64,000 bases of DNA from Oscillospiraceae bacterium. GTDB lineage: Bacteria; Bacillota; Clostridia; Oscillospirales; Ruminococcaceae. The notes beneath the pieces are model-generated. The model was not told the DNA's origin and did not search any database. It saw only the letters and a program-made list of their open reading frames with translations. Position numbers and translations under genes: made by a program. The first letter of the stretch is position 1. Each line of letters starts with the position of its first letter. Shown piece by piece: positions 27,096 to 48,896 of this stretch. The stretch is from contig JAGBCL010000109.1 of assembly GCA_018110825.1 (NCBI GenBank), forward strand, positions 62,001 through 126,000. Reading direction: 5' to 3'.

Positions 27096-27125
27096 TTGAC
27101 ATTTACAGCAAATATGTGATATTAT
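27096..27125 (+). promoter_or_regulatory. Promoter of the GH16/AraC unit
   Basis: TTGACA (27096-27101), 18 bases, TATTAT (27120-27125). Confidence 0.6.
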
Positions 27126-27179
27126 TGATTTGTTAAAAGTGTTATAATCATGTCATAACAACAAATTGGAGGTTTTACC

Positions 27180-27959
27180 ATGAAAAAGATAAAGCTTATT
27201 TCAGCTATTTTAACAACTGCTGTTTTACTTGCAGCTTGCGGAAAAGAACCGGTAACAGAAACAATATCCGAAACAACAGAAGTTACTGCTGCGGAAATAC
27301 TTGATGACGGTTCCGCATATGTCGAATTTTCAGATGGCATGCCTGAAAACTGGGAGTGTGCTGACGGCTGGACAAACGGCAGTATGTTTAATGTTACATG
27401 GCGTAAATCAAATGTAACCTTCAATGATGGAAAAATGCAGCTGATTATTGATAAGGATTTGCTTTCTGACGGCACTATTCCTTATGCAGGCGGAGAATTC
27501 AGAAGCAAGGATTTTTACGGTTACGGACGCTATGAGGTTTCAATGAAGGCTATTAAAAATAACGGTGTGGTATCTTCATTCTTTACATACACAGGTCCTT
27601 CCGACGGAAATCCGTGGGACGAAATTGATGTTGAAATTCTCGGCAAGGATACAACAAAGGTTCAGTTCAACTACTTTACAAACAGTCAAGGTAATCATGA
27701 ATACATGCATGACCTTGGTTTTGATGCAGCTGAGGATTTTCACACGTATGCATTTGAATGGCACAAGGACAAAATCGTCTGGTTTGTTGATGGTGAAGAA
27801 GTATACAGTGCCAATGAAAACATACCGGTGACAGAAAGCAAGATTATGATGAATTCCTGGTGCGGAACCGGTGTTGATGGTTGGCTTAATGCTTTTGATG
27901 ATACAAATATGCCGCTTACTGCTGAATATGAATGGATAAGATTTACTCCATTTGAATAA
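27180..27959 (+). CDS. GH16 licheninase-like lipoprotein
   Basis: 259 residues. Lipoprotein signal MKKIKLISAI with lipobox LAAC, short Thr-rich linker, then a GH16 jelly roll: GEFRSKDFYGYGRYEV, WDEIDVEILG with the nucleophile and acid/base Glu of the E-I-D-x-E motif, and HTYAFEWHKDKIVWFVDG. This is the bacterial beta-1,3-1,4-glucanase (lichenase) pattern; it cuts mixed-linkage glucans at the cell surface. GGAGG precedes the ATG. It is followed 14 bases later by an AraC regulator in the same transcript. Confidence 0.9.
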   Translation: MKKIKLISAILTTAVLLAACGKEPVTETISETTEVTAAEILDDGSAYVEFSDGMPENWECADGWTNGSMFNVTWRKSNVTFNDGKMQLIIDKDLLSDGTIPYAGGEFRSKDFYGYGRYEVSMKAIKNNGVVSSFFTYTGPSDGNPWDEIDVEILGKDTTKVQFNYFTNSQGNHEYMHDLGFDAAEDFHTYAFEWHKDKIVWFVDGEEVYSANENIPVTESKIMMNSWCGTGVDGWLNAFDDTNMPLTAEYEWIRFTPFE

Positions 27960-27973
27960 ACGGAGGTGACACT

Positions 27974-28711
27974 GTGAATGTAAATAAAAAGCTTTCGCAT
28001 GTCGAATTTCTCAATCGTGAATATAATATTTCACATCTTTCCTACGAACGTGAAATGGCTTTCTTCTACAGCATAAAGGAAGGAAATGCCGAAGAAGCAA
28101 ACCGCCTGTTCAAGCCGTTCAACAGCGCAGACATGGGCAGTCTCAGTGATGATAAGCTTCGTAATCTGAAATATCACCTGATTATAACCGTTGCACTGAT
28201 TACCCGATACTGCATTGAAGGCGGAATGGAAATGGAAACGGCATACAATCTGAGTGACATATACATCAGAAGCATTGACAAATGTCGCACCGAAGAAGAA
28301 ATAAATTTACTTCATCATGAGGTTGTAGATGATTATGCACAGCGGATGAATATTATCCGAAAACAGAATAAGTATCCAAAGGCGGTTACAATATGCCTTG
28401 ATTATATTTATGATAATCTGCACCGCAGAATTACGCTTGAAAATCTTGCTGACAAAGTTTCTCTCAGTCCTGCATACCTGTCTAAACTTTTTCATAAGGA
28501 AACAGGAATGACGGTATCAGGTTACATAACCAAAAAGAGGATTGAGGCAGCTGAAAATATGCTGAAATTTTCGGAATATTCCTGCCTTGACATTTCAGAA
28601 TATCTTTGCTTCAGTTCTGAGAGTCACTTTATTCAGGTGTTTAAAAAGCACACTGGTTATACCCCAAAAGTTTACCGCGAAAAATTCTTCAGAACAAAAA
28701 CTTCTACATAA
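27974..28711 (+). CDS. AraC-family regulator
   Basis: 245 residues. GTG start at 27974 with GGAGG 7-8 bases upstream. Residues 1-140 are an all-helical region with a Y-x-IKEGN motif, unlike the cupin sensors of other AraC proteins here. Residues ~140-242 are the double helix-turn-helix (ITLENLADKVSLSPAYLSKLF, CLDISEYLCFSSESHFIQVF, YTPKVYREK). It shares a transcript with the GH16 gene and probably controls it and the divergent GH5. Ligand unknown. Confidence 0.85.
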   Translation: MNVNKKLSHVEFLNREYNISHLSYEREMAFFYSIKEGNAEEANRLFKPFNSADMGSLSDDKLRNLKYHLIITVALITRYCIEGGMEMETAYNLSDIYIRSIDKCRTEEEINLLHHEVVDDYAQRMNIIRKQNKYPKAVTICLDYIYDNLHRRITLENLADKVSLSPAYLSKLFHKETGMTVSGYITKKRIEAAENMLKFSEYSCLDISEYLCFSSESHFIQVFKKHTGYTPKVYREKFFRTKTST

Positions 28712-28717
28712 ATACTT

Positions 28718-28751
28718 AACCCCGTCACAGCTTTATTGCTGCGGCGGGGTT
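28718..28751 (+). terminator. Terminator after the GH16/AraC unit
   Basis: AACCCCGTCACAGC paired with GCTGCGGCGGGGTT around TTTATT, then GATTTATT; also lies at the 3' side of the convergent GH5_4 gene. Confidence 0.8.
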
Positions 28752-28764
28752 GATTTATTACCGA

Positions 28765-30561
28765 TTATGGAGCGTTATATGTAAAAGTAACTGTCAATGT
28801 ATCAATTCTCGTACTGCTGTCAAGAGGCATAATCTGTGCGGAACAACCGGTTGTATCTCCGTCAACTGTTCTTGCTTCCTCAGGAACGCTTGGCACCCAC
28901 TGATTATACAGATTAACTCTTGTACAATTTCCATCATCAGAAGCTGTATATTCCTTTGCGGCAAGTGTATATGGTTCGTCATTGACAAGGATACTGTCTA
29001 TGCTGATTGTATAATCAGGGAAAAGTGCTTCGCCGTTGTAGATACCGAGGGCAGAGAAAGCTGTTCCGTAAACACCGCCAAGGTCGGTAAAATCAAGACT
29101 TACTGTATATGTGCCCTCTCCCGTAACCTCAACATTTGTTGCCTTTATGCCGGCTGTCATATTTGTAGGGTCATATCTGTCACCTACGCTGTATGCAACT
29201 GTCCAGTCAGCACTCTGGAACATAATCCACGCTGCAGCTTTGTCATCACTTGGAAGAACAGAAATTCCCTCGATAATATCATCGCTTGCTTTCTTGTATG
29301 CTGCATCAATACGTTCCTTTGCAGAAGATTTGATTTCTTCTGTTGTCATATCCTTTTCGTTTGCATAACGACGGTCGCTGAAAATTCCTGCGAGAGTTTC
29401 ATCTGCCATAGTTTGTGTAAGACGCTTGTAAAGGGAATTACAGTCCCAAAGTACAGGACAGAAATCGTAATAATCACAGTTATCAAGAAAGTTGCTGTAG
29501 AACTTATCTGTATCAGGCTTTGGTGCACCGTCTGTAAGTACGGCATACTCGCCGATTACTACACCATAGCCTTGTTCGTTGAACTTGCTGAGCATTTCCA
29601 TAAGCTCATTCTGCTCCTTGTAGTCATCAGGTGAACCCCAGTGATTGAGTGCATCAGAACCGCAGTAATCCCATGGTGTATAATAATGAACAGAAAGGAG
29701 AAGCTTATCTTTTGCTGTATCCTCAGGCATCTTGTAACGGTCGTCACAGGTCATTGTAATATCTGTATTGTAACCAGCGATAAGGAGGAAACGGTCAGCA
29801 TTCTTGCCGCCTGTTGAACGAATAAGCTTTACAAATTCGCTATTGATTTCGTATAGCTTTTCGTAACATTCGTCCTGTGTAAGAATACCCTTTGAGCCTG
29901 TGATTTCCTTGTCGTTAAGGCGATCTCCGAGTTCTTCGTTTGCTGACTCGAAAATCACCTTATAGGAATAATCCTTGAATCGTTCACCAATCTGGTTCCA
30001 CATGGATTTATAGAGTTCCATGCCCTTTTCACGGACTTCCATATCTGCTGAGCCGAACATGCCCCACCAGCCGCCGTCCCAGTGGTCATTGATGATAACG
30101 TACATATCTGCATCAAGTGCATAGTTGACTACTTCCTCAACACGAGCCATAAGTCTTTCATCAATTGTGTAATCGCCGCTTTCGAAGTTCATTCCGTTTG
30201 TCCATGCAACAGGAATACGGAGGGTATCAAAGCCTGCGTCCTTCATACCCTGTATGATTTCAGGAGTTGTCTTGGGCTGTCCCCAGCTTGTTTCGAAGTT
30301 TGTTGGGGCTGCTCCGCCAACATATCCCTGATGATTGTACGCTTCAAGGGTATTGCCGAGGTTGATTCCGTTACCCATCAGACCGATAACCTCAAGAGAT
30401 GTAAGGTTATTTCCCTCACCTTCTGCTGCACTATTTGCTGCATTTGCAATATTCTGCACTTCTGCTGTACTGTCAGCAGTACCTTCCTTTGAACAGCCTG
30501 CACAAAGCATTAATGCTGCTGTGCACAGCAATGCAGTGAATTTTTTGAACGTTTTTTTCAT
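28765..30561 (-). CDS. GH5 subfamily 4-like lipoprotein with C-terminal beta module
   Basis: 598 residues. The start at 30561 yields MKKTFKKFTA with lipobox CAGC; GAGGAGCAGG lies upstream. The GH5 domain (about 45-390) begins with MGNGINLGNTLEA, typical of GH5_4 xyloglucanases/endoglucanases, then INDHWDGGWW, FESANEELGD (acid/base Glu) and VVIGEYAV (nucleophile Glu). After a helical linker, residues ~430-598 form a beta-rich module (WIMFQSADW, YTVSLDFTDLGG, YTISIDSILVNDEPY) that I cannot place in a named CBM family but which probably binds polysaccharide. It is 17 bases downstream of the GH43 gene, in one operon. Confidence 0.87.
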   Translation of the reverse strand: MKKTFKKFTALLCTAALMLCAGCSKEGTADSTAEVQNIANAANSAAEGEGNNLTSLEVIGLMGNGINLGNTLEAYNHQGYVGGAAPTNFETSWGQPKTTPEIIQGMKDAGFDTLRIPVAWTNGMNFESGDYTIDERLMARVEEVVNYALDADMYVIINDHWDGGWWGMFGSADMEVREKGMELYKSMWNQIGERFKDYSYKVIFESANEELGDRLNDKEITGSKGILTQDECYEKLYEINSEFVKLIRSTGGKNADRFLLIAGYNTDITMTCDDRYKMPEDTAKDKLLLSVHYYTPWDYCGSDALNHWGSPDDYKEQNELMEMLSKFNEQGYGVVIGEYAVLTDGAPKPDTDKFYSNFLDNCDYYDFCPVLWDCNSLYKRLTQTMADETLAGIFSDRRYANEKDMTTEEIKSSAKERIDAAYKKASDDIIEGISVLPSDDKAAAWIMFQSADWTVAYSVGDRYDPTNMTAGIKATNVEVTGEGTYTVSLDFTDLGGVYGTAFSALGIYNGEALFPDYTISIDSILVNDEPYTLAAKEYTASDDGNCTRVNLYNQWVPSVPEEARTVDGDTTGCSAQIMPLDSSTRIDTLTVTFTYNAP

Positions 30562-30578: not shown

Positions 30579-31979
30579 TCATATAAACTTCCAATTTTCA
30601 AGACTTATATTCTTCTCTGAAAAAGCAAAATAAAGGTTGTGATTTCCAGATATCTGCTTTTCAAAATCAACTGTATATTCCTTGACGTTTTCTTTTAATT
30701 CAATTACAGCAAACGGATTATCGTTCCTTTCATCAAGCCTTAATTCGACAGAGCCTGAACCGCTTGCCTTAATGTAAAGCTTCTGTGCTCCGTTTCTGAA
30801 ATCAACACCTTTTACATATATCCACGAACCATTATCAAGCGATATCACACTCATAGTGCCATTATCATTTTTGTCGTACCACATACCTGCACAAGTAAAC
30901 ATTTCCGCACCGCTGTGCTGTTTATACGGATCAAGCCACTGCACCTGATTTACACCATCACGGGTTGCTTTTGTAACAGGAAATTCCGTGTCACTGTAGG
31001 GCAGATAGTCTACACACATACATCTGAATCCACCTTTGGTATTCATCCGTTCCTGAATATGCATTGTATGATGCAGAATATATTTCGTACCTCTGTATTC
31101 TGTAAGATGGGTATGGTTGTTGCACCAATCCATACCCGATTCGCCTGCATTCAGAAACAGACCGCACCTGAATTCCCAGCTGTCTGCATCAAGAGGCGTT
31201 TTACTGGTCATACACCCCATACTGCATATTGACGGTGCAGGAATATCACTTCTGTCCCAGTTATCTCTTGCCTGCCAATCCGTACTGTATGTGTAAATAT
31301 ATGTACCGTTTTCATAGTTAAGCTCGCTTGCTTCGTAAAAATACGGTGCATCAATTGAAATAAAATCACTGTCAAAGGAAAGCATATCCCTACCAAGCTT
31401 AACTATTTTCGCAACCTTGGAATGAATGGTATTTCCGTCTGACGGAGTACCGCCTCCGAAAGAAAGCCATCCTATACCATTTTCATCAATGCACACGCCC
31501 GGATCAAACGGTGCAGGACAATTCTCAAGTCCTGGCATATTCTGATATATAAGCGGTTTACCGAGCGGGTCACTCCATGGACCAAGAGGATTGATTGCTG
31601 TCAGTACACCTACTCCGTTGCCATTATTGGAAAAATAAAGATAAAAATGTGTCAGGCCATCATCTTCAGTACGGGATACAATTGATGGTGCCCATGAATT
31701 TGTTATCCATGGTGCAATTTCTGCTGTATTGATAATTCCGTGATATTCCCAGTTCGCCATATCATCAGTGGAAAAAATCACAAGTGACTTTATGTGAACA
31801 TAATCATTTTTCCCGTCATCACCGACTGCCTGGTATTGTTGGTGGTCGTTAGTCCCGTAAACATACAGCCTGCCGTCATACTCCACGCTTGTAGGGTCTG
31901 CGCAGAACACATTGGGAGAAATGGGATTTGCTGTAGTTTCAAGTTTAAACGGCTTATCATTCAATTTTTCTGTTGCCAT
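30579..31979 (-). CDS. Cytosolic GH43 enzyme with CBM6-like tail
   Basis: 466 residues, no signal peptide. NVFCADPTSVEYDGRLYVYGT contains the GH43 catalytic-base Asp, WAPSI the pKa-modulating region (with PFDPGVCID), and FYEASELNY the acid Glu, all in five-bladed propeller order. Residues ~340-466 look like a CBM6-type beta sandwich (CAGMWYDKND, WIYVKGVDFRNGA). GH43 members remove arabinose or xylose; cytosolic location suggests action on imported arabinoxylo- or xyloglucan oligosaccharides. GAGGTG precedes the ATG at 31979; a long upstream frame crosses the promoter and is rejected. First gene of a two-gene operon with GH5_4. Confidence 0.87.
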   Translation of the reverse strand: MATEKLNDKPFKLETTANPISPNVFCADPTSVEYDGRLYVYGTNDHQQYQAVGDDGKNDYVHIKSLVIFSTDDMANWEYHGIINTAEIAPWITNSWAPSIVSRTEDDGLTHFYLYFSNNGNGVGVLTAINPLGPWSDPLGKPLIYQNMPGLENCPAPFDPGVCIDENGIGWLSFGGGTPSDGNTIHSKVAKIVKLGRDMLSFDSDFISIDAPYFYEASELNYENGTYIYTYSTDWQARDNWDRSDIPAPSICSMGCMTSKTPLDADSWEFRCGLFLNAGESGMDWCNNHTHLTEYRGTKYILHHTMHIQERMNTKGGFRCMCVDYLPYSDTEFPVTKATRDGVNQVQWLDPYKQHSGAEMFTCAGMWYDKNDNGTMSVISLDNGSWIYVKGVDFRNGAQKLYIKASGSGSVELRLDERNDNPFAVIELKENVKEYTVDFEKQISGNHNLYFAFSEKNISLENWKFI

Positions 31980-32009
31980 ATTCAGCACCTCATTATATTT
32001 GCTGTCATT

Positions 32010-32038
32010 ATTATACTTAACAGCAACTACAAAATCAA
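32010..32038 (-). promoter_or_regulatory. GH43/GH5_4 operon promoter
   Basis: Minus strand: TTGATT (32038-32033), 17 bases, TATAAT (32015-32010). Confidence 0.75.
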
Positions 32039-32085
32039 TAGTGCACATTCGGATAATCCACCTTTTAATCAAAATATGCACTATT
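32037..32085. promoter_or_regulatory. Paired operator half-sites between divergent promoters
   Basis: AATAGTGCA (32037-32045) and TGCACTATT (32077-32085): perfect 9-base inverted repeat, arms 40 bases apart (about four helical turns). One arm touches the GH43 -35 box, the other lies 5 bases from the regulator -35 box. Confidence 0.6.
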
Positions 32086-32089
32086 TTTA

Positions 32090-32118
32090 TTGACATTGAG
32101 AAAAAAAGAGGATATAAT
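32090..32118 (+). promoter_or_regulatory. Promoter of the composite regulator gene
   Basis: TTGACA (32090-32095), 17 bases, TATAAT (32113-32118). Full consensus, 22 bases before the start. Confidence 0.8.
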
Positions 32119-32139
32119 TCTCTAAAAGGCGGTGATTTT

Positions 32140-34254
32140 ATGGCAAAGAAAAAATTAGCTGTCATAACTGCAAGAGCTGATGACACGGAACAAAAGGAGA
32201 TACTTTGCGGAATTGCTGAAGCTGCTTTTTCAGCAAATGCAGATATTGCTGTTTATTCCAATATCTATAACCATATTACCGACGACGAACAACTCAGGTT
32301 TGAGAATATAATCTATAATCTTTTTGACCCTGACGATTTTGACGGTGTAATAATTACAACTGAGGCTTTTATGGATATCAATATTCTTGATAATGTTATT
32401 GACAAGCTGAAAAAATCACAGCTTCCAACCATAACGGTCGGTAAGGAAATTGATGGCTTTGAATGTATTTTGTCTGATGATGCCGATGATATGGAAAAGA
32501 TAACAGAACATCTTATTACTGCTCACGACTTTACTGACATTGATATTCTTACAGGAAACAGCAACAATCCTGTGTCACACATCAGAGTTGAAGGCTGCAG
32601 AAGAGCTTTTCAGAATCACGGTATTAATTTCAATGAATCCAAAGTACATTACGGCAGTTTCTGGAATGATTCGGGTGATACTCTTGCACATCGTTATATC
32701 AATGGCGAGCTTCCGATTCCTCAAGCTGTAATATGCACCAACGATTACATGGCTTACGGTTTATGCGACGCACTTACGACTGCAGGTATAGCTATTCCCG
32801 AAAAAGTAACAATTACAGGATATGATTACACGGGTGGAAGAATTTATCATTATCCTGTTCTTACCACAATGCACAGAAACAGGCGCAAGATGGGAATTGA
32901 TGCTGTAAACAAACTATTCAAATGTTTTTATCCATCAAAAAGCACTGACAGATTTGTATACGGAAACACCTGCTTTTGCGGGACTGACCGTATCCAGCTT
33001 GCTGAGGAAATGAAATCAGAAAGAATTAATCAATATCATACAATAATGAGCAGCGTTGCTCAATTTTCAAGCCGCCTTACATTGTGTCAGACTATTGCGG
33101 AGTATACTGCCGTGCTTAGTGAATTTTCTTATCTTATTCATGGTGCAGAAAGGCTTTATCTTTGCCTTGATGCATTATGGAATAATGCTGAACATGAATG
33201 TGAGGAATTTATCTGCCACGAAATAAGCAGAACACCAAATAACACTGCACCCAGAAAACTTGGCAAAAACGAGCTGGTTACGTCCTTGTTTGACATATAT
33301 GACAAACCTATGCTTAACTATTTGATTCCTGTTCATTTCCAGACAAGGCTGTTCGGATATATTGTGCTATCATACAATTATCCTGAAAGCTATGATTTCA
33401 GCTTCCGTGACTGGCTTAAAACTGCCGCAAATGCACTTGAAATCCTGAGAATGAAAAATGACATTCACTATCTTTCCAAATGTCAGCGTGCATCACTGCT
33501 TTACGACTCACTTACCGGCTTTTACAATCTTCGTGAGTTCAGTGAAATACTTGATGAAATCACCGAAAACAGTTTCTTGTATGCAATAAAAATGAATTTT
33601 ATTAATGACGGGGAACACATTTATGGAGAACACTACAGAAGCGATATAATTTCCACTGCCGCAGATGCGATAAAAAAAGCTTGCACAAGACACGAAATAT
33701 GCTGCCGTGCAGATGATGATACTTTCATTATTTTATGTAAATCCGATACTGAAATTTTTTCAGACAAAATTAAAGTAATGCTTGATAATGAGATATACGA
33801 AAGATACGATGAACGTCAGGTTATGATAAGCTGTACTTTTACTGATAATCGTGATATTAAAAAATTATGTGCCGATATTAATTACAAATCGCAACTTGAT
33901 ATTGCAAAGCTTAATAAAAGAAAGGAATTGCCGCATTACAACGAACTTCTTGACATACGGATTTCAATTATGACAGAACCTCATAAAGCACCTGAACTTA
34001 ATGAAGCAAGCCGCAGACTATGCGTAAGTGAGGGGTACTTCCGTTCAGTATACAAGAAATGCTTTGGTGTAAGCTATAATCAGGACTGCATAAATGCAAG
34101 GATAAGCAAGGCTTGTTATCTTTTATGCACAACTGCTATGAGTATATATTCAATTGCTCTGAAATGCGGTTATGGTGATGAAAAATATTTTTCACGGCAA
34201 TTCAGACAGATAACCGATTGCTCTCCTATACAATATAGGAATAAGTACTGCTGA
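32140..34254 (+). CDS. Composite regulator: sugar-sensor domain, degenerate GGDEF, AraC DNA-binding domain
   Basis: 704 residues, no membrane spans, cytosolic. Residues 1-270 are a LacI/GalR-type periplasmic-binding-like sensor (KLAVITARADD, VEGCRRAFQNHGI, AVICTNDYMAYGL, VTITGYDYTG). A middle part of ~180 residues is uncharacterised. From ~452, DSLTGFYNLREF begins a GGDEF-like domain whose signature is RADDDTF instead of GGDEF, so cyclase activity is unlikely. Residues ~606-704 are an AraC double helix-turn-helix (LNEASRRLCVSEGYFRSVYKKCFG, YSIALKCGYGDEKYFSRQF). ATG at 32140 has AAAGGCGGTG upstream; a 76-codon upstream extension overlaps the promoter. Divergent from GH43/GH5_4, its probable target. 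Confidence 0.85.
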   Translation: MAKKKLAVITARADDTEQKEILCGIAEAAFSANADIAVYSNIYNHITDDEQLRFENIIYNLFDPDDFDGVIITTEAFMDINILDNVIDKLKKSQLPTITVGKEIDGFECILSDDADDMEKITEHLITAHDFTDIDILTGNSNNPVSHIRVEGCRRAFQNHGINFNESKVHYGSFWNDSGDTLAHRYINGELPIPQAVICTNDYMAYGLCDALTTAGIAIPEKVTITGYDYTGGRIYHYPVLTTMHRNRRKMGIDAVNKLFKCFYPSKSTDRFVYGNTCFCGTDRIQLAEEMKSERINQYHTIMSSVAQFSSRLTLCQTIAEYTAVLSEFSYLIHGAERLYLCLDALWNNAEHECEEFICHEISRTPNNTAPRKLGKNELVTSLFDIYDKPMLNYLIPVHFQTRLFGYIVLSYNYPESYDFSFRDWLKTAANALEILRMKNDIHYLSKCQRASLLYDSLTGFYNLREFSEILDEITENSFLYAIKMNFINDGEHIYGEHYRSDIISTAADAIKKACTRHEICCRADDDTFIILCKSDTEIFSDKIKVMLDNEIYERYDERQVMISCTFTDNRDIKKLCADINYKSQLDIAKLNKRKELPHYNELLDIRISIMTEPHKAPELNEASRRLCVSEGYFRSVYKKCFGVSYNQDCINARISKACYLLCTTAMSIYSIALKCGYGDEKYFSRQFRQITDCSPIQYRNKYC

Positions 34255-43786: not shown

Positions 43787-43861
43787 AATGAATTAATTTT
43801 GCAATCAGTTCAGCATAAATCTGAATTCTGACTCTCACTTTATCAAGAATACTAACCAGTA

Positions 43862-44092
43862 TTGTTTAATATACAGTTAGGCAGCAACATTTTCAACATC
43901 CTTTTCGTAATAGGTGTTTCTGCACTTATTGTTCCTGTCCCTTTTGCAAGCAACTTCGTCTTTGATACAATTGTGGCAATAATCGCTGCAGTTATGCTTC
44001 TCCTGTGCTGTCTTAAAACACAGTCTCTCAAGCGTTGGGCAGGTATACTTATGCTTATCAGCTATGCTGTGTATTTTGTAATGATTCTCTGA
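43862..44092 (+). pseudogene. C-terminal remnant of a Na+/Ca2+ antiporter (CaCA family)
   Basis: An open stretch encoding GSNIFNILFVIGVSALI, the alpha-2 repeat signature of calcium/sodium antiporters, then FDTIVAIIAAVMLLL and a final span ending in SYAVYFVMIL. A full antiporter is about 310-330 residues with an alpha-1 repeat; only the last ~70 residues are present and the sequence upstream (43787-43861) shows no continuation or start with a ribosome site. It is read as a decayed gene, not a functional small protein. Confidence 0.7.
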
Positions 44093-44132
44093 TAAAATCA
44101 GGAATTGTTACTGACAAGCAATTATTTTTCAT

Positions 44133-44174
44133 AAAAACATCGTCCTTACTCAATAAAGTAAGGACGATGTTTTT
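44133..44174. terminator. Bidirectional terminator between antiporter remnant and EAL gene
   Basis: An 18-bp perfect stem (44133-44150 with 44157-44174), A-rich before and T-rich after on each strand. Confidence 0.92.
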
Positions 44175-44195
44175 AATATTTATAGCAAACAATAA

Positions 44196-46265
44196 TTATT
44201 CACTTTTGATTTCTGTACCATTGACAACAACATTCATTCTTCCGCCTTCAATAATGAATTTATCCTTATCAATGAAGTTCATATAATCTGCCTTGGTAAC
44301 AAGATTTACAGACGAATCTGCATTGAGCAGGGAAATTTCATTGTCACGGCTATAGCCTCCGAGTGCAAGTGCGTTGTCACCCTTGGAGATAATATGCATA
44401 CTTGCCTTGCTTAGTTTGAACACTGTTGAGCCTTCCAACGCGGCAACTGCTGCACAATGATCTGCAGAAATATTGAATACCATACTTGCCTCGCAGACAG
44501 AAACATCACAACTGCTTCCCTCCAGTGTGCCTATACCGACCATATCACTGCCTGAAAGGGAAATCTTTGTTGAAGCATGATGTATGTTTGCAATACATTT
44601 TCCCTGCTGAGAGCCTATTGCAACCCCAAATTGCTCCGAAAGGTCAAAGGATATATTGCATGCAAACAACTCAATATCCGTATCACCTTCATGTGAACCT
44701 ATACCAACACCGAAATATCCGGTCATTTTCAATGAAAACTGTCCGAGGAGAATTCTGATTTTTCCACCAAGTCCTGAGCCTATGCAGACACCGCCTGCGG
44801 CATGGTTGTCAACGGAAATACCTTGTTCAAACACAAGTTCACCGTGCTTTGAATCTATGTCATTTCCTATTGCGTAATAACCCGAACCATCAATAAATAT
44901 GGACAGACCACCATCACCGCATACATGCAGCTTTGCACTTTCCGGGACCTTTATTCCACCGTTTTTAAGCTTGTTTGTACCACTGAGCACAAGCTTGACG
45001 TCGCAATTTTCACCTATATTGATACAAGGACGGCTTTTTGAATTGGAAAGAACGGCATTGGAAAGTATTATGCTGCCCTTAAAGCCATTTGAAACATCAA
45101 CGTATATATCAGTATCAATACCTGGAGTACCTGCGATTGTGACTTCGCCATCTCCGGATTTACCAATCAGAATACATTTATATTCTTCCATTCCAAGCCT
45201 TTCAAGCTGTATTCTTTCTGATTTTTCTGCTGTGTAAATATGATACTTTATTCCATCATCACGTTCCTGACGGTAAAGCTTTATTTCCTGTCTTATCTCG
45301 TAAGGAATCGTTTCCATAACAACAGCTGAAGGCCTTGAAGTGTAATATCCCTGAACAAGGTCTGCACCGAGATGGATAACAGTTTGCAGCTCTTCGGAGG
45401 TTTCCACACCTTCAGCAAGAGCAAGGATTCCGTTATCATGACAGAAATCTATAATCTCACGCACAAAATACCGCTTCTTACGGTTATTCAGTATATCACT
45501 CACGAGCGAACGGTCAATCTTGACATAATCAGGCATATACCGCAGCAGATTCTGCACATTGGAATAGCCTGTTCCGTAATCGTCAATTGCTGTTCTGACG
45601 TTTATACTATTGTACATTTCCTTGATTGTGCCAAACTCATTGTCACCCATTTCGGACTGTTCTGTCATCTCAACAACAACCCTGTCCGAATATTTTCCCA
45701 ACATCATTTTTATTCGCTCCATGTCGGCCTCATCAAGCCTTGCGCTTGGTATGCTGTTGATAAAAACAGGATGCCCATGAAACATATCGGTTTCACTGCC
45801 AATTCTGTCAAGCACATTGAGGAAAGTTGCTTTTTCGACATCATTGAGTCTGTCTGTTATTTCCGCATATTTGATAATATGATACGGACTCGGACACAAT
45901 ACACTCTTAGGACGCATAAGAGCTTCATATGAGTATATTGCACCGTTAACAGTACTTACAATAGGCTGAAAATGATAATCAAAAAGATTTTCATCAATTA
46001 TCTTCGTTACCTCTGCAAGCTCAGCACGCTCCTGCTCCGTTCGTACAACAAGCTGATTATCCGTATTCACAGCATTGCTTCGGAGCATGACAAGCTCACT
46101 GCCTATCTTCCTTATGTCCTTCAGCACCTCTGCCATAAGCTCATCATTTTCACATTCAAGCTTATTGGCATATTCCGCAGTAATTCTATTGAGTTCATTT
46201 TCATCATTCACACAGACAACAGCTGAAAGCAGTCTATGTAACATTTCAAGTTTTATTCCGTTCAT
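44196..46265 (-). CDS. EAL phosphodiesterase fused to a C-terminal beta-solenoid
   Basis: 689 residues, no signal peptide or membrane span. Residues ~1-90 are helical. Residues ~92-330 are an EAL domain with all usual catalytic motifs: YEALMR, FINSIPS, VEMTEQSE, DDYGTGYSN, KIDRSL, AEGVET and QGYY, so it should hydrolyse cyclic di-GMP. After a linker, residues ~370-689 read as a right-handed beta-helix: a cap like those of secreted carbohydrate-binding repeat proteins (VKLVLSGTNKLKNGGI, LHVCGDGGLSIFIDG) and then about seven turns of 27-29 residues each starting with a VGIGS/VAIGS-type motif. Monocistronic. Fusion of these two parts is unusual; the solenoid may be a sensor or scaffold. Confidence 0.85.
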   Translation of the reverse strand: MNGIKLEMLHRLLSAVVCVNDENELNRITAEYANKLECENDELMAEVLKDIRKIGSELVMLRSNAVNTDNQLVVRTEQERAELAEVTKIIDENLFDYHFQPIVSTVNGAIYSYEALMRPKSVLCPSPYHIIKYAEITDRLNDVEKATFLNVLDRIGSETDMFHGHPVFINSIPSARLDEADMERIKMMLGKYSDRVVVEMTEQSEMGDNEFGTIKEMYNSINVRTAIDDYGTGYSNVQNLLRYMPDYVKIDRSLVSDILNNRKKRYFVREIIDFCHDNGILALAEGVETSEELQTVIHLGADLVQGYYTSRPSAVVMETIPYEIRQEIKLYRQERDDGIKYHIYTAEKSERIQLERLGMEEYKCILIGKSGDGEVTIAGTPGIDTDIYVDVSNGFKGSIILSNAVLSNSKSRPCINIGENCDVKLVLSGTNKLKNGGIKVPESAKLHVCGDGGLSIFIDGSGYYAIGNDIDSKHGELVFEQGISVDNHAAGGVCIGSGLGGKIRILLGQFSLKMTGYFGVGIGSHEGDTDIELFACNISFDLSEQFGVAIGSQQGKCIANIHHASTKISLSGSDMVGIGTLEGSSCDVSVCEASMVFNISADHCAAVAALEGSTVFKLSKASMHIISKGDNALALGGYSRDNEISLLNADSSVNLVTKADYMNFIDKDKFIIEGGRMNVVVNGTEIKSE

Positions 46266-46408: not shown

Positions 46409-46798
46409 TCAATTATCTGTCATATAAATTCTCACTACAACTCCGTTCTCCACACATTCCACATCTGCTGTAAGGTTTGCTTTTTCGAGAAAAGCAAGCT
46501 CCTCGCTGTCAGTGTAAATTCTCGGCACACAATTCTCAAGGGACGTACCGTTATTTTCGATAAACAATCTGCAATATTTTCCGCTTTTATCCATTCCTTC
46601 AAGCATATACCGTGCTGAAAGTGAAAACCCGTCAGATGTACTTATCTGTGTGTCTACTCCATTTGAAATGGTTTTTCCATTGAAATATTTTCCCGTTGCT
46701 TCTCCGCTGAATGGTATCATCACAACTCTTGAATTTCTGCCATCGAGTGCCTGTGCTTCATAGGTTGTAACGTTTATCGTAACAATAAGCTCAACCAT
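46409..46798 (-). CDS. DUF3237-family protein
   Basis: 129 residues from the ATG at 46798. The pattern YEAQALDGRNSRVVMIPFSG, FNGKTISNGVDTQ, LSARYMLEGMDKSGKY and FIENNG matches DUF3237, a small beta-barrel-like family of unknown function. Its start codon overlaps the end of the composite regulator by 8 bases (ATGGTTGA), so it is translationally coupled to it. That linkage suggests a job in the regulated pathway or as a ligand-binding partner, which is inference. Confidence 0.75.
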   Translation of the reverse strand: MVELIVTINVTTYEAQALDGRNSRVVMIPFSGEATGKYFNGKTISNGVDTQISTSDGFSLSARYMLEGMDKSGKYCRLFIENNGTSLENCVPRIYTDSEELAFLEKANLTADVECVENGVVVRIYMTDN

Positions 46799-48896
46799 TT
46801 TTCTCAGCCTTTCTGTATTGTCCCGCACTCATATTTTCGCGTTCCTTGAATTGTCTCATAAAATGTGCACAGTTTGTATAACCACATTCCTCCGCAACCT
46901 GCTGAACAGTCATTGAGGTGTTTCTGAGCAGATATTTTGCTCTGTCGATACGGAATAAAATCAATTCCTCAGTAAAAGAAACTCCGAAATATTTTTTATA
47001 CAAACGCTGAAAATGGCTTCCGCTGAGTCCCGTTTTTTCTGCGGCTGAAGCAACACTCCAGTTGAACTGCGGTAAATATTTCATTTCACTGCGAAGATTT
47101 GCAAAAACTTCTGAATATGTCTCGCTGTTTTTCGGTACATTCTTTTCCGTAAGCATACCATACATTTTATCAAGTTGCTTTTCACAAGTCTGCTTATCTG
47201 ATATTTTCTCCGATGTCATACCAATTTCATTTTCAGTGATATAAATTCCAAGCTCGGACATTGAACGGCAAAGTCCCCTTAAAAAATCATCGTAGCTCTC
47301 ATTTTCAAGTACTATTCCGAAAACAGTTTCCCCCATATACACTGCCATTCTGCTGTTATCATCCGAACGCAGAACTGTAGAAACAATCGGCACGAAATAC
47401 TGCATATTCCTGCTTCTCTGCGGAAACGAAACTGCCGTAACAATATCGCCGTTTTCAACCTTTTTTACAAATCCCCTGCGGCTCATGAGTCCCGTATAAA
47501 TATCCATCATATTCTTTTCTTCAAGTTTCTGCCAGATATATTCCGTATTGCTCTTTTTTATAACAATATCAAGTCCGTTTGCAACAGCGTCACACCAGCT
47601 TATATAATGCTCATCAACGGCAAATTGCTCCGCCTTTTCGTATTGTGTTGCAATATACCCGATTATCCTGTCGGAGTAATGAATTGAACTGAATACCCAT
47701 AACTGTGGTTCATGCGGAATATTAAGCCGCGGAAGAAGTTTTTGCAGAGGGAAAAGAAGCTGTCCGGGCAAATTTTCCGAATAAATAAGATTCATGTTTT
47801 CAGAAAAGCCATGTTTTCTGTATTCGGGATGCTCCGTACGCCAATCCTCACACAAGCAGATATTTACAGAAATACAGTCGGACAGCATATACCGCAGGCT
47901 GTCAAGCACAGCCGCAAATTTCGGTATTGATTCACAATCAGACATTCTTACAATATAATTTGAGAACATGAAATTTTTTCTGTCAAGCTGTCTGTGGAGC
48001 ATTTTCTCTGTTTCTTCAAGCAGCGCATCTCTTTCGCCAAGTTCGTTATTACATCCGCAGCTTCCGCATATTCTTATATGCACATTTCCGCAGTCAATAT
48101 CATTGTCAATATTCATCATTTCTGCAAGCGTTTTTACCGCACTCTTGCCGAGACACAAATCGCCGCCGCACACCGTGGTTATTGCAGGCTTTGTAATAAG
48201 CGTATATACACTTCCGTCATAGCCTGTTACAGCAACATCTCTTGGAACCTTCAGACCATGTTTCTGCAATTCCTGACAAAGTGCAACCGCCATAATATCG
48301 TTTGTACACACAACAGCTTCGGGGCATTTCATTTCCCCTGTTGCAATCTTTTCAGCGATATTTGCAGCTGTATATCTCCAGAAATCACCGTAAATTATTT
48401 TTCCGTGCCAATCAAGTCCGTTGTCCTCCATTGCTGAAATAAAACCATCGGCACGAATTTGTGCTTCGTAATTTTCTTTGGGACCGGTAAGGCATAAAAT
48501 ATTTTTGTAACCATGCCATACAAGCAAATGGTCGGTAAGGTTGTATATACTCTTTTTCTGGTCAAGGAACACGCCCTTGATTTTGTCGTGTTTCTCCTCG
48601 ACGACAACGCATGGAATTTTGCTTTTTTCAAGTCGGCTCAGGATTTCAGCTTTAAGATTTTCATCATGGAAACGGTTTGCCGCCATAATTATTCCATCAA
48701 TTTCCGTCATAAATGTCAGATTATATATATTATTTTCTCCGCTTGTATAGCTGTCAGCATTTTCTGCTGATATGCTTGTAAACACCAACGTGTCCAAACC
48801 GATTTGTTTTGCCGCTGTATGTATACCTGTAAGGAATTCCTTGTCAAGCGCGTCATATACTGCTGGAATAAGTACTGCTATTCTTCCTCTTGCCAT
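46791..48896 (-). CDS. Composite regulator: sugar-sensor domain, degenerate GGDEF, AraC DNA-binding domain (second copy)
   Basis: 701 residues, same architecture as the protein at 32140-34254. Residues 1-275: LacI/GalR-type sensor (RIAVLIPAVYDALD, YNLTDHLLVWHGYKNILCLTG, AVVCTNDIMAVALCQELQKHG, AVTGYDGSVY). A Cys-containing segment (CGSCGCN) and helices follow. From ~464, MDIYTGLMSRRGF starts a GGDEF-like domain with MGETVF in place of GGDEF, so no cyclase. Residues ~602-701: AraC double helix-turn-helix (SVASAAEKTGLSGSHFQRLYKKYFG, VQQVAEECGYTNCAHFMRQF). Start at 48896 is chosen because GAGGTG is 6 bases upstream; two upstream codons overlap it. Confidence 0.85.
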   Translation of the reverse strand: MARGRIAVLIPAVYDALDKEFLTGIHTAAKQIGLDTLVFTSISAENADSYTSGENNIYNLTFMTEIDGIIMAANRFHDENLKAEILSRLEKSKIPCVVVEEKHDKIKGVFLDQKKSIYNLTDHLLVWHGYKNILCLTGPKENYEAQIRADGFISAMEDNGLDWHGKIIYGDFWRYTAANIAEKIATGEMKCPEAVVCTNDIMAVALCQELQKHGLKVPRDVAVTGYDGSVYTLITKPAITTVCGGDLCLGKSAVKTLAEMMNIDNDIDCGNVHIRICGSCGCNNELGERDALLEETEKMLHRQLDRKNFMFSNYIVRMSDCESIPKFAAVLDSLRYMLSDCISVNICLCEDWRTEHPEYRKHGFSENMNLIYSENLPGQLLFPLQKLLPRLNIPHEPQLWVFSSIHYSDRIIGYIATQYEKAEQFAVDEHYISWCDAVANGLDIVIKKSNTEYIWQKLEEKNMMDIYTGLMSRRGFVKKVENGDIVTAVSFPQRSRNMQYFVPIVSTVLRSDDNSRMAVYMGETVFGIVLENESYDDFLRGLCRSMSELGIYITENEIGMTSEKISDKQTCEKQLDKMYGMLTEKNVPKNSETYSEVFANLRSEMKYLPQFNWSVASAAEKTGLSGSHFQRLYKKYFGVSFTEELILFRIDRAKYLLRNTSMTVQQVAEECGYTNCAHFMRQFKERENMSAGQYRKAEKNG

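Follow-up and report, generated by a model that had tools for sequence, protein, structure and literature searches.

The window, the whole stretch of 64,000 nucleotides that was analysed, comes from a contig of an Oscillospiraceae bacterium and carries on its reverse strand a gene whose product joins an EAL domain to a C-terminal beta-helix. The gene, its parts and its nearest neighbours are the following, residues being numbered along the encoded protein:

44196..46265, reverse strand: EAL and beta-helix gene, 689 aa, ATG start, stop codon within the span
45999..46265, reverse strand: N-terminal part, residues 1-89, helical, without known sensor, pLDDT below 50 at residues 64-72
45330..45998, reverse strand: EAL phosphodiesterase domain, residues 90-312 (Pfam)
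45255..45302, reverse strand: linking helix between EAL domain and beta-helix, residues 322-337 (full-length model; conserved)
44295..45239, reverse strand: beta-helix, residues 343-657 (structure predictions and structural matches)
44355..44879, reverse strand: seven VGIGS-like motifs, residues 463-637, with a period of 27-29
44199..44294, reverse strand: C-terminal cap, residues 658-689, a short helix and strands, with conserved R676 and N682
44132..44175, no strand assigned (scan output given as forward strand): terminator-like stem-loop of 19 pairs with a T-rich tail, directly after the stop codon of the EAL gene
46409..46828, reverse strand: upstream neighbour, DUF3237-like, 139 aa
46791..48905, reverse strand: upstream neighbour, LacI-type sugar-binding domain, middle region (GAF-like by eye) and AraC HTH, 704 aa

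Three terminator-like sites were found in the region against 4.0 expected from shuffles, and the stem of the site at 44132..44175 is by far the longest. At about 43830-44093 on the forward strand, an open stretch resembles the C-terminus of a membrane protein, cation-exchanger-like by eye; it has no upstream part and has the appearance of a gene remnant. The EAL gene is included in a dense carbohydrate-use region (28765-50202), and GH5, GH43 and GH2 genes, LacI and AraC regulators, a solute-binding protein with two permeases (ABC transporter) and an esterase are found from about 28.8 to 50.2 kb. A second regulator with a sugar-binding domain and an AraC part (31912-34254, forward strand, 780 aa) resembles the neighbour of the EAL gene in its layout; the GGDEF match that overlaps this second regulator is weak (E 5.4e-6). 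Rfam searched at the gathering score over the whole window gave no match, cyclic di-GMP riboswitches included, and the PADLOC search for defence systems at E 0.01 gave none.

The EAL domain and the beta-helix tail

The only domain found by Pfam in the window protein is EAL (PF00563), with 161.4 bits against a curated cut-off of 31.3, while NCBIfam matches it only through the EAL part and always far under the cut-offs. Nine residues, which we take to be the catalytic positions (E114, N170, E199, E202, D228, D229, K249, E285 and Q305), are invariant wherever a row has a letter, in 77-79 of the 79 rows of an EAL alignment from which nine loci were left out (eight gene copies and, by oversight, the separate gene L015). 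The catalytic motifs described in the original prediction are present and, judging from the sequence, the domain is expected to be an active cyclic di-GMP phosphodiesterase. It aligns with Lmo0131 (4q6j), BlrP1 and a Vibrio EAL protein (6ifq). Degenerate EAL receptors of the LapD/FimX type have lost catalytic residues, and this identity was ruled out since the window protein keeps all nine; in the structure search, LapD and FimX match the model through the common EAL fold, their matches covering residues 73-325 only. The EAL fold and the catalytic positions are also common to BlrP1, PdeA, MorA and DosP, none of which is known to have a C-terminal beta-helix.

In the window protein, 377 residues follow the EAL domain. 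The VGIGS-like motifs start at residues 463, 492, 519, 547, 575, 604 and 632, with spacings of 29, 27, 28, 28, 29 and 28. When the single sequence was matched to itself the best lag was 28, but it was equalled by 4.4% of 2000 shuffles; on the 49-row family profile lag 28 was again the best and was reached by none of 2000 shuffles, which rules out chance repeats. Motif spacing and family profile together confirm the seven VGIGS-led turns of 27-29 residues proposed earlier. The solenoid reading stands as well, since structure prediction of the tail gave a beta-helix (pLDDT 93.2, pTM 0.91), and the prediction superposes on solved right-handed parallel beta-helix proteins over most of the domain. 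From the strand pattern, the seven regular turns would form a part of the helix, preceded by about four less regular turns from about residue 343. In the full-length model (pLDDT 88.3, pTM 0.71), the placement of the EAL domain relative to the helix is uncertain at that pTM.

Conservation was read from alignments of the related loci described below, A1 (48 of 55 loci plus the window) and A2 (49 of 55 loci plus the window). At the linking helix, I328, E334 and G338 are invariant in the 50-row alignment. Mean identity is 0.62-0.69 in blocks up to residue 519 versus 0.43-0.53 in blocks 520-687, and the EAL-proximal half of the beta-helix is more conserved than the far half in the 49-row alignment. 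Gly, Ile and Leu account for 45 of the 75 columns conserved at 85%, six columns being acidic (three of these in the linking helix) and three aromatic; Trp is absent in 40 of 49 solenoids. Residues 360-689 had no match in Pfam and NCBIfam up to E 1, nor did the solenoid in a phmmer search of PDB sequences. The PDB profile search with the solenoid returned 34 rows, of which subtilisins made up nearly the whole; the best E was 0.017, and the matches were judged to be chance.

Distribution, cellular place and fold relatives

The 55 related loci belong to Oscillospiraceae, Ruminococcus (many of them R. flavefaciens), Lachnospiraceae, Eubacterium and others, largely from rumen or gut according to the record titles. 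They were found with a query including the EAL domain and therefore contain it by construction, so that the search with the solenoid alone is the independent test. This search matched 23 of 61 genomes, among them every one of the 21 searched that belong to the window's genus; in most of these the match lies in a longer frame, about 1000 aa in length, that resembles the paralog in the window's own genome. With the solenoid profile, matches were obtained in 15 of 345 genomes at the level of the order (two weakly), 16 of 391 at that of the class (three weakly) and 3 of 398 at that of the phylum. EAL-domain motifs were in frame at 44 of the 47 solenoid-only loci, which include five repeat fetches and represent 42 distinct genes, 39 of them with the motifs. 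The three exceptions are L017, whose frame is cut by the contig end, and L110 and L111, weak matches in large non-EAL proteins. The exact EAL pattern is absent from L036, L038 (which reads YEILMR) and L101, but the DDxG, EGVE and QG motifs are present; L094-L096 were fetched and lie outside the analysis.

The novelty envisaged for the fusion holds in part, as this domain arrangement is widespread in the lineage and yet carries no name in Pfam or NCBIfam. No description of EAL enzymes with a beta-helix or solenoid was found in the literature searched, and no paper on c-di-GMP enzymes of this kind in rumen Ruminococcus; an article bearing on c-di-GMP, EAL, rumen and Ruminococcus (PMC9540692) has, in the portion consulted, AI-2 receptors as its subject. 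EAL enzymes and beta-helices are each well known, and it is the tail of the fusion that is unnamed.

On the Kyte-Doolittle scale, 19-residue means of the window protein rise no higher than 1.24, and neither a membrane span nor a signal-peptide core was seen by this hydropathy measure, as the original prediction had stated. The reading as an exported protein was rejected, hydropathy giving no signal in its support, and on the same measure the solenoids of the window protein and of the own-genome paralog are expected in the cytosol. The solved structures listed as matches of the beta-helix are presumably secreted, surface, periplasmic or phage proteins; these fold matches, together with hydropathy, support the view that a fold of the cell exterior has been joined to an intact EAL enzyme without export signal. 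Vag8, the SRRP adhesin, the AlgE/AlgG epimerases and polygalacturonases are right-handed beta-helices outside the cytosol, sharing 6-13% identity with the window helix among the 50 matches listed; unlike them, the window helix is expected to be cytosolic and is fused to a signalling enzyme.

Five genomes encode large proteins (L110, L111 and L144-L146) with distant sequence similarity to the first half of the helix; the E-values, 1e-9 to 1e-6, were obtained with filters tolerant of biased composition, and the L110 and L111 matches arise locally only when the bias filter of HMMER is off. The N-termini of L111 and L153, the only two read, are signal-peptide-like by eye; L153 comes from one of the L144-L146 genomes, and 2231 residues of its 2477-aa frame, signal-like start included, were read. 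On this sequence likeness, large and probably secreted proteins count among the distant kin of the first half of the tail. L153 (G932:C2:90500-99500) is a very large surface-type protein with Beta_helix_3 repeats, and three stretches of this protein match the first half of the solenoid.

The Cthe_2159 family (PF14262), which consists of beta-helix proteins of Clostridia and others according to the part of PMC6712302 consulted, shares its fold with the window tail. As the identity of the tail it was ruled out by profile, despite the distant likeness of the fold and the few large proteins. PF14262 did not match the window protein and matched one of the 49 rows of A1, at E 0.027 and without a bit score. 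Comparison by hhalign of the solenoid profile with 18 of the 20 fetched PF14262 domains (alignment A3) indicated no relation (Prob 0.8 percent, E 0.069), and with all HMMER filters off the best E-values in the PF14262 loci were 0.15, in an opposite-strand frame of L118, and 0.24, in the Cthe_2159 ORF of L115. Six Asp are invariant in Cthe_2159, whereas three Asp columns reach at least 85% in the window family, the columns having been counted separately for each family.

N-terminal parts and neighbouring GGDEF genes

With our own HMM, a LacI-type sugar-binding domain was found ahead of the EAL domain in the same ORF in 40 of the 55 related ORFs, and Pfam confirms it in all three long forms scanned (L059, L093 and L054); the sugar-binding and GGDEF models were built in-house from seven neighbours, the former also from three long forms. 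A PBP-GGDEF-EAL-helix form, with frames of 1273-1284 aa in another family, was observed in the three frames scanned out of eight, the helix being identified there by the solenoid search, and their GGDEF signatures are degenerate by eye. The own-genome paralog is a membrane-GGDEF-EAL-helix protein (984 aa stop to stop) whose hydropathy is at least 1.6 only for segments starting at positions 15-51, corresponding to the N-terminal membrane part, and whose GGDEF signature is degenerate-looking by eye. A GH26+CBM35 enzyme and a carbohydrate phosphorylase are encoded next to this paralog (L012 10080-14297). A hydropathy of 1.6 was reached by 3 of the 55 ORFs, the top value being that of L075, near the beginning of its stop-to-stop frame and possibly before the true start. 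The short form encoded in the window has no sensor domain recognisable by Pfam.

In a tree of 77 cores, made by a quick method with long-branch warnings (L034, L041) and with the own-genome paralog entered twice (L010, L011), the membrane-form rows lie on one side of one branch (support 100); this label was given by kinship, the membrane part having been checked only in the own-genome paralog and the other loci being cut before it. Three changes among the three labels were counted on the same tree, compared with a shuffled mean of 32.5, L083 having been set with the short forms by hand despite its longer N-terminus and L067 being a fragment of a split PBP form. The N-terminal part was exchanged or lost while the EAL domain and the tail stayed joined.

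GGDEF ORFs are concentrated near the family, with 19 in 60,184 bases (3.16 per 10 kb) at 600 bp or less from the 55 ORFs versus 8 in 380,508 bases (0.21 per 10 kb) farther out, as counted with a model that was built from seven near neighbours and is biased toward finding near ones. The sugar-binding domain is also carried by nine of the 19 near GGDEF ORFs versus none of the eight far ones, and Pfam confirmed the PBP-GGDEF arrangement in seven of these nine. Such adjacency concerns a part of the family, 19 of the 55 ORFs only, and among these at least L048, L053, L055, L058 and L090, five in number, also match EAL and so are not plain cyclases. The same bacteria have GGDEF proteins with a LacI-type sugar-binding domain, whose N-terminal sensor is of the kind seen in the long EAL-beta-helix proteins but which end in GGDEF, without beta-helix; at 9 of the 55 loci they adjoin the EAL-beta-helix ORF, where they are possibly the opposing enzyme.

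The window gene has no GGDEF gene alongside, the nearest on the contig being about 10 kb away. Cyclic di-GMP is plausibly made in its own genome, because 9 EAL, 22 GGDEF and 15 Peripla_BP_3 matches were found there. Six more frames combining a LacI-type sugar-binding domain with GGDEF were noted in this genome (contigs C47, C100, C14 twice, C101 and C87), and by their domain content sugar-linked cyclases seem common in this bacterium. The upstream 704-aa PBP-AraC protein aligns over about residues 6-462 with the N-terminus of long EAL-beta-helix proteins (22-30% identity). Its gene was rejected as a fixed partner: a counterpart is also found close to the EAL gene in L039, but in an order that differs from that in the window, and no match was found in L040.

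Role of the beta-helix

The reading that we favour, with a probability of about 0.4, is that of a cytosolic cyclic di-GMP phosphodiesterase in which the beta-helix is a fixed structural or docking arm and the input comes from the N-terminus. The EAL domain would cleave cyclic di-GMP, and the conserved helix 322-337 would join it to the capped beta-helix, an arm that would keep the EAL dimer, or a cyclase acting as partner, in position. In the long forms, the LacI-type N-terminal domain would bind a sugar in the cytosol, as the putative input in most of the related ORFs found, and this sugar-type input would alter the EAL dimer and so change cyclic di-GMP hydrolysis. In the short form of the window, the input would have been lost or never been present, and hydrolysis would presumably be set by expression or by a partner. 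We infer an arm acting as scaffold or dock, and not as sensor, because the EAL/helix pairing is constant and the joint helix conserved, and because the computed conservation is stronger in the EAL-proximal half, aromatic residues making up only 3 and acidic ones 6 of the 75 conserved columns. The stronger conservation next to the EAL domain could alternatively be the mark of a ligand site.

A rival reading is that of a cytosolic ligand sensor (for example of a glycan, glycogen or a cell-wall precursor) tuning the EAL domain from its C-terminal side; it is related to the new sensor first suggested for this protein, and we regard it as unlikely. Outside the cell, beta-helices bind polysaccharides; many of the structural matches listed are polysaccharide-binding or -cutting proteins and adhesins, two of the large proteins with distant relatedness read as secreted, no other sensor is recognised in the short form, and carbohydrate-acting genes surround both the window copy and the own-genome paralog. 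However, a role of the tail as the variable sensor is put in doubt chiefly by the change of the N-terminus around a constant EAL domain and tail, a sensor domain being already present in 40 of the 55 ORFs. The scarcity of conserved aromatic and acidic columns in the helix, with most solenoids lacking Trp, lowers this reading further, and the carbohydrate-binding family tested, Cthe_2159, is unrelated by profile.

The conserved residues of the helix being mostly structural and its far half divergent, it could also serve passively, as a rigid spacer or a tail that stabilises the protein, after a single recruitment and retention by inertia. We consider this improbable, as the helix persists through four different arrangements of the N-terminus and in three families of the class, and the joint helix is itself conserved. 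A role in localising the phosphodiesterase, for example at the cell pole, on glycogen or in a membrane complex, appears quite improbable: the own-genome paralog presents the same core on a membrane anchor, but this anchored form still has the helix, and no targeting motif was seen by eye. Bactofilins are cytosolic beta-helices that polymerise, and end-to-end stacking of the helices into similar cytosolic filaments can be imagined on that precedent; it is very improbable here, both ends of the model appearing capped (helix 322-337 on one side, the short helix and strands 658-689 on the other). Pfam gave no match, bactofilin or other, in residues 360-689.

Returning to the docking arm, a broader proposal, which we put forward tentatively and hold to be doubtful, is that in fibre-degrading gut Clostridia the EAL domain and the beta-helix form a new regulatory unit, a cytosolic switch responding to sugar, in which the helix would hold together the phosphodiesterase and, in some species, a neighbouring cyclase with a sugar-binding domain of the same kind, local cyclic di-GMP being set by the entering sugar. 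For rumen Ruminococcus, the data suggest a cyclase/phosphodiesterase pair linked to sugar, and the N-terminal inputs changing around a constant EAL-beta-helix core lead to a clear testable prediction. Within this signalling system, the tail appears to be a conserved component: it adds a conserved domain without name to the cyclic di-GMP enzymes, and a fold best known from extracellular proteins is retained inside the cell in many species. In the window's own genome, a PBP-GGDEF-EAL protein without the tail was also noted (L152, G000:C97 about 27105-29329), with one TAA within its sugar-binding part.
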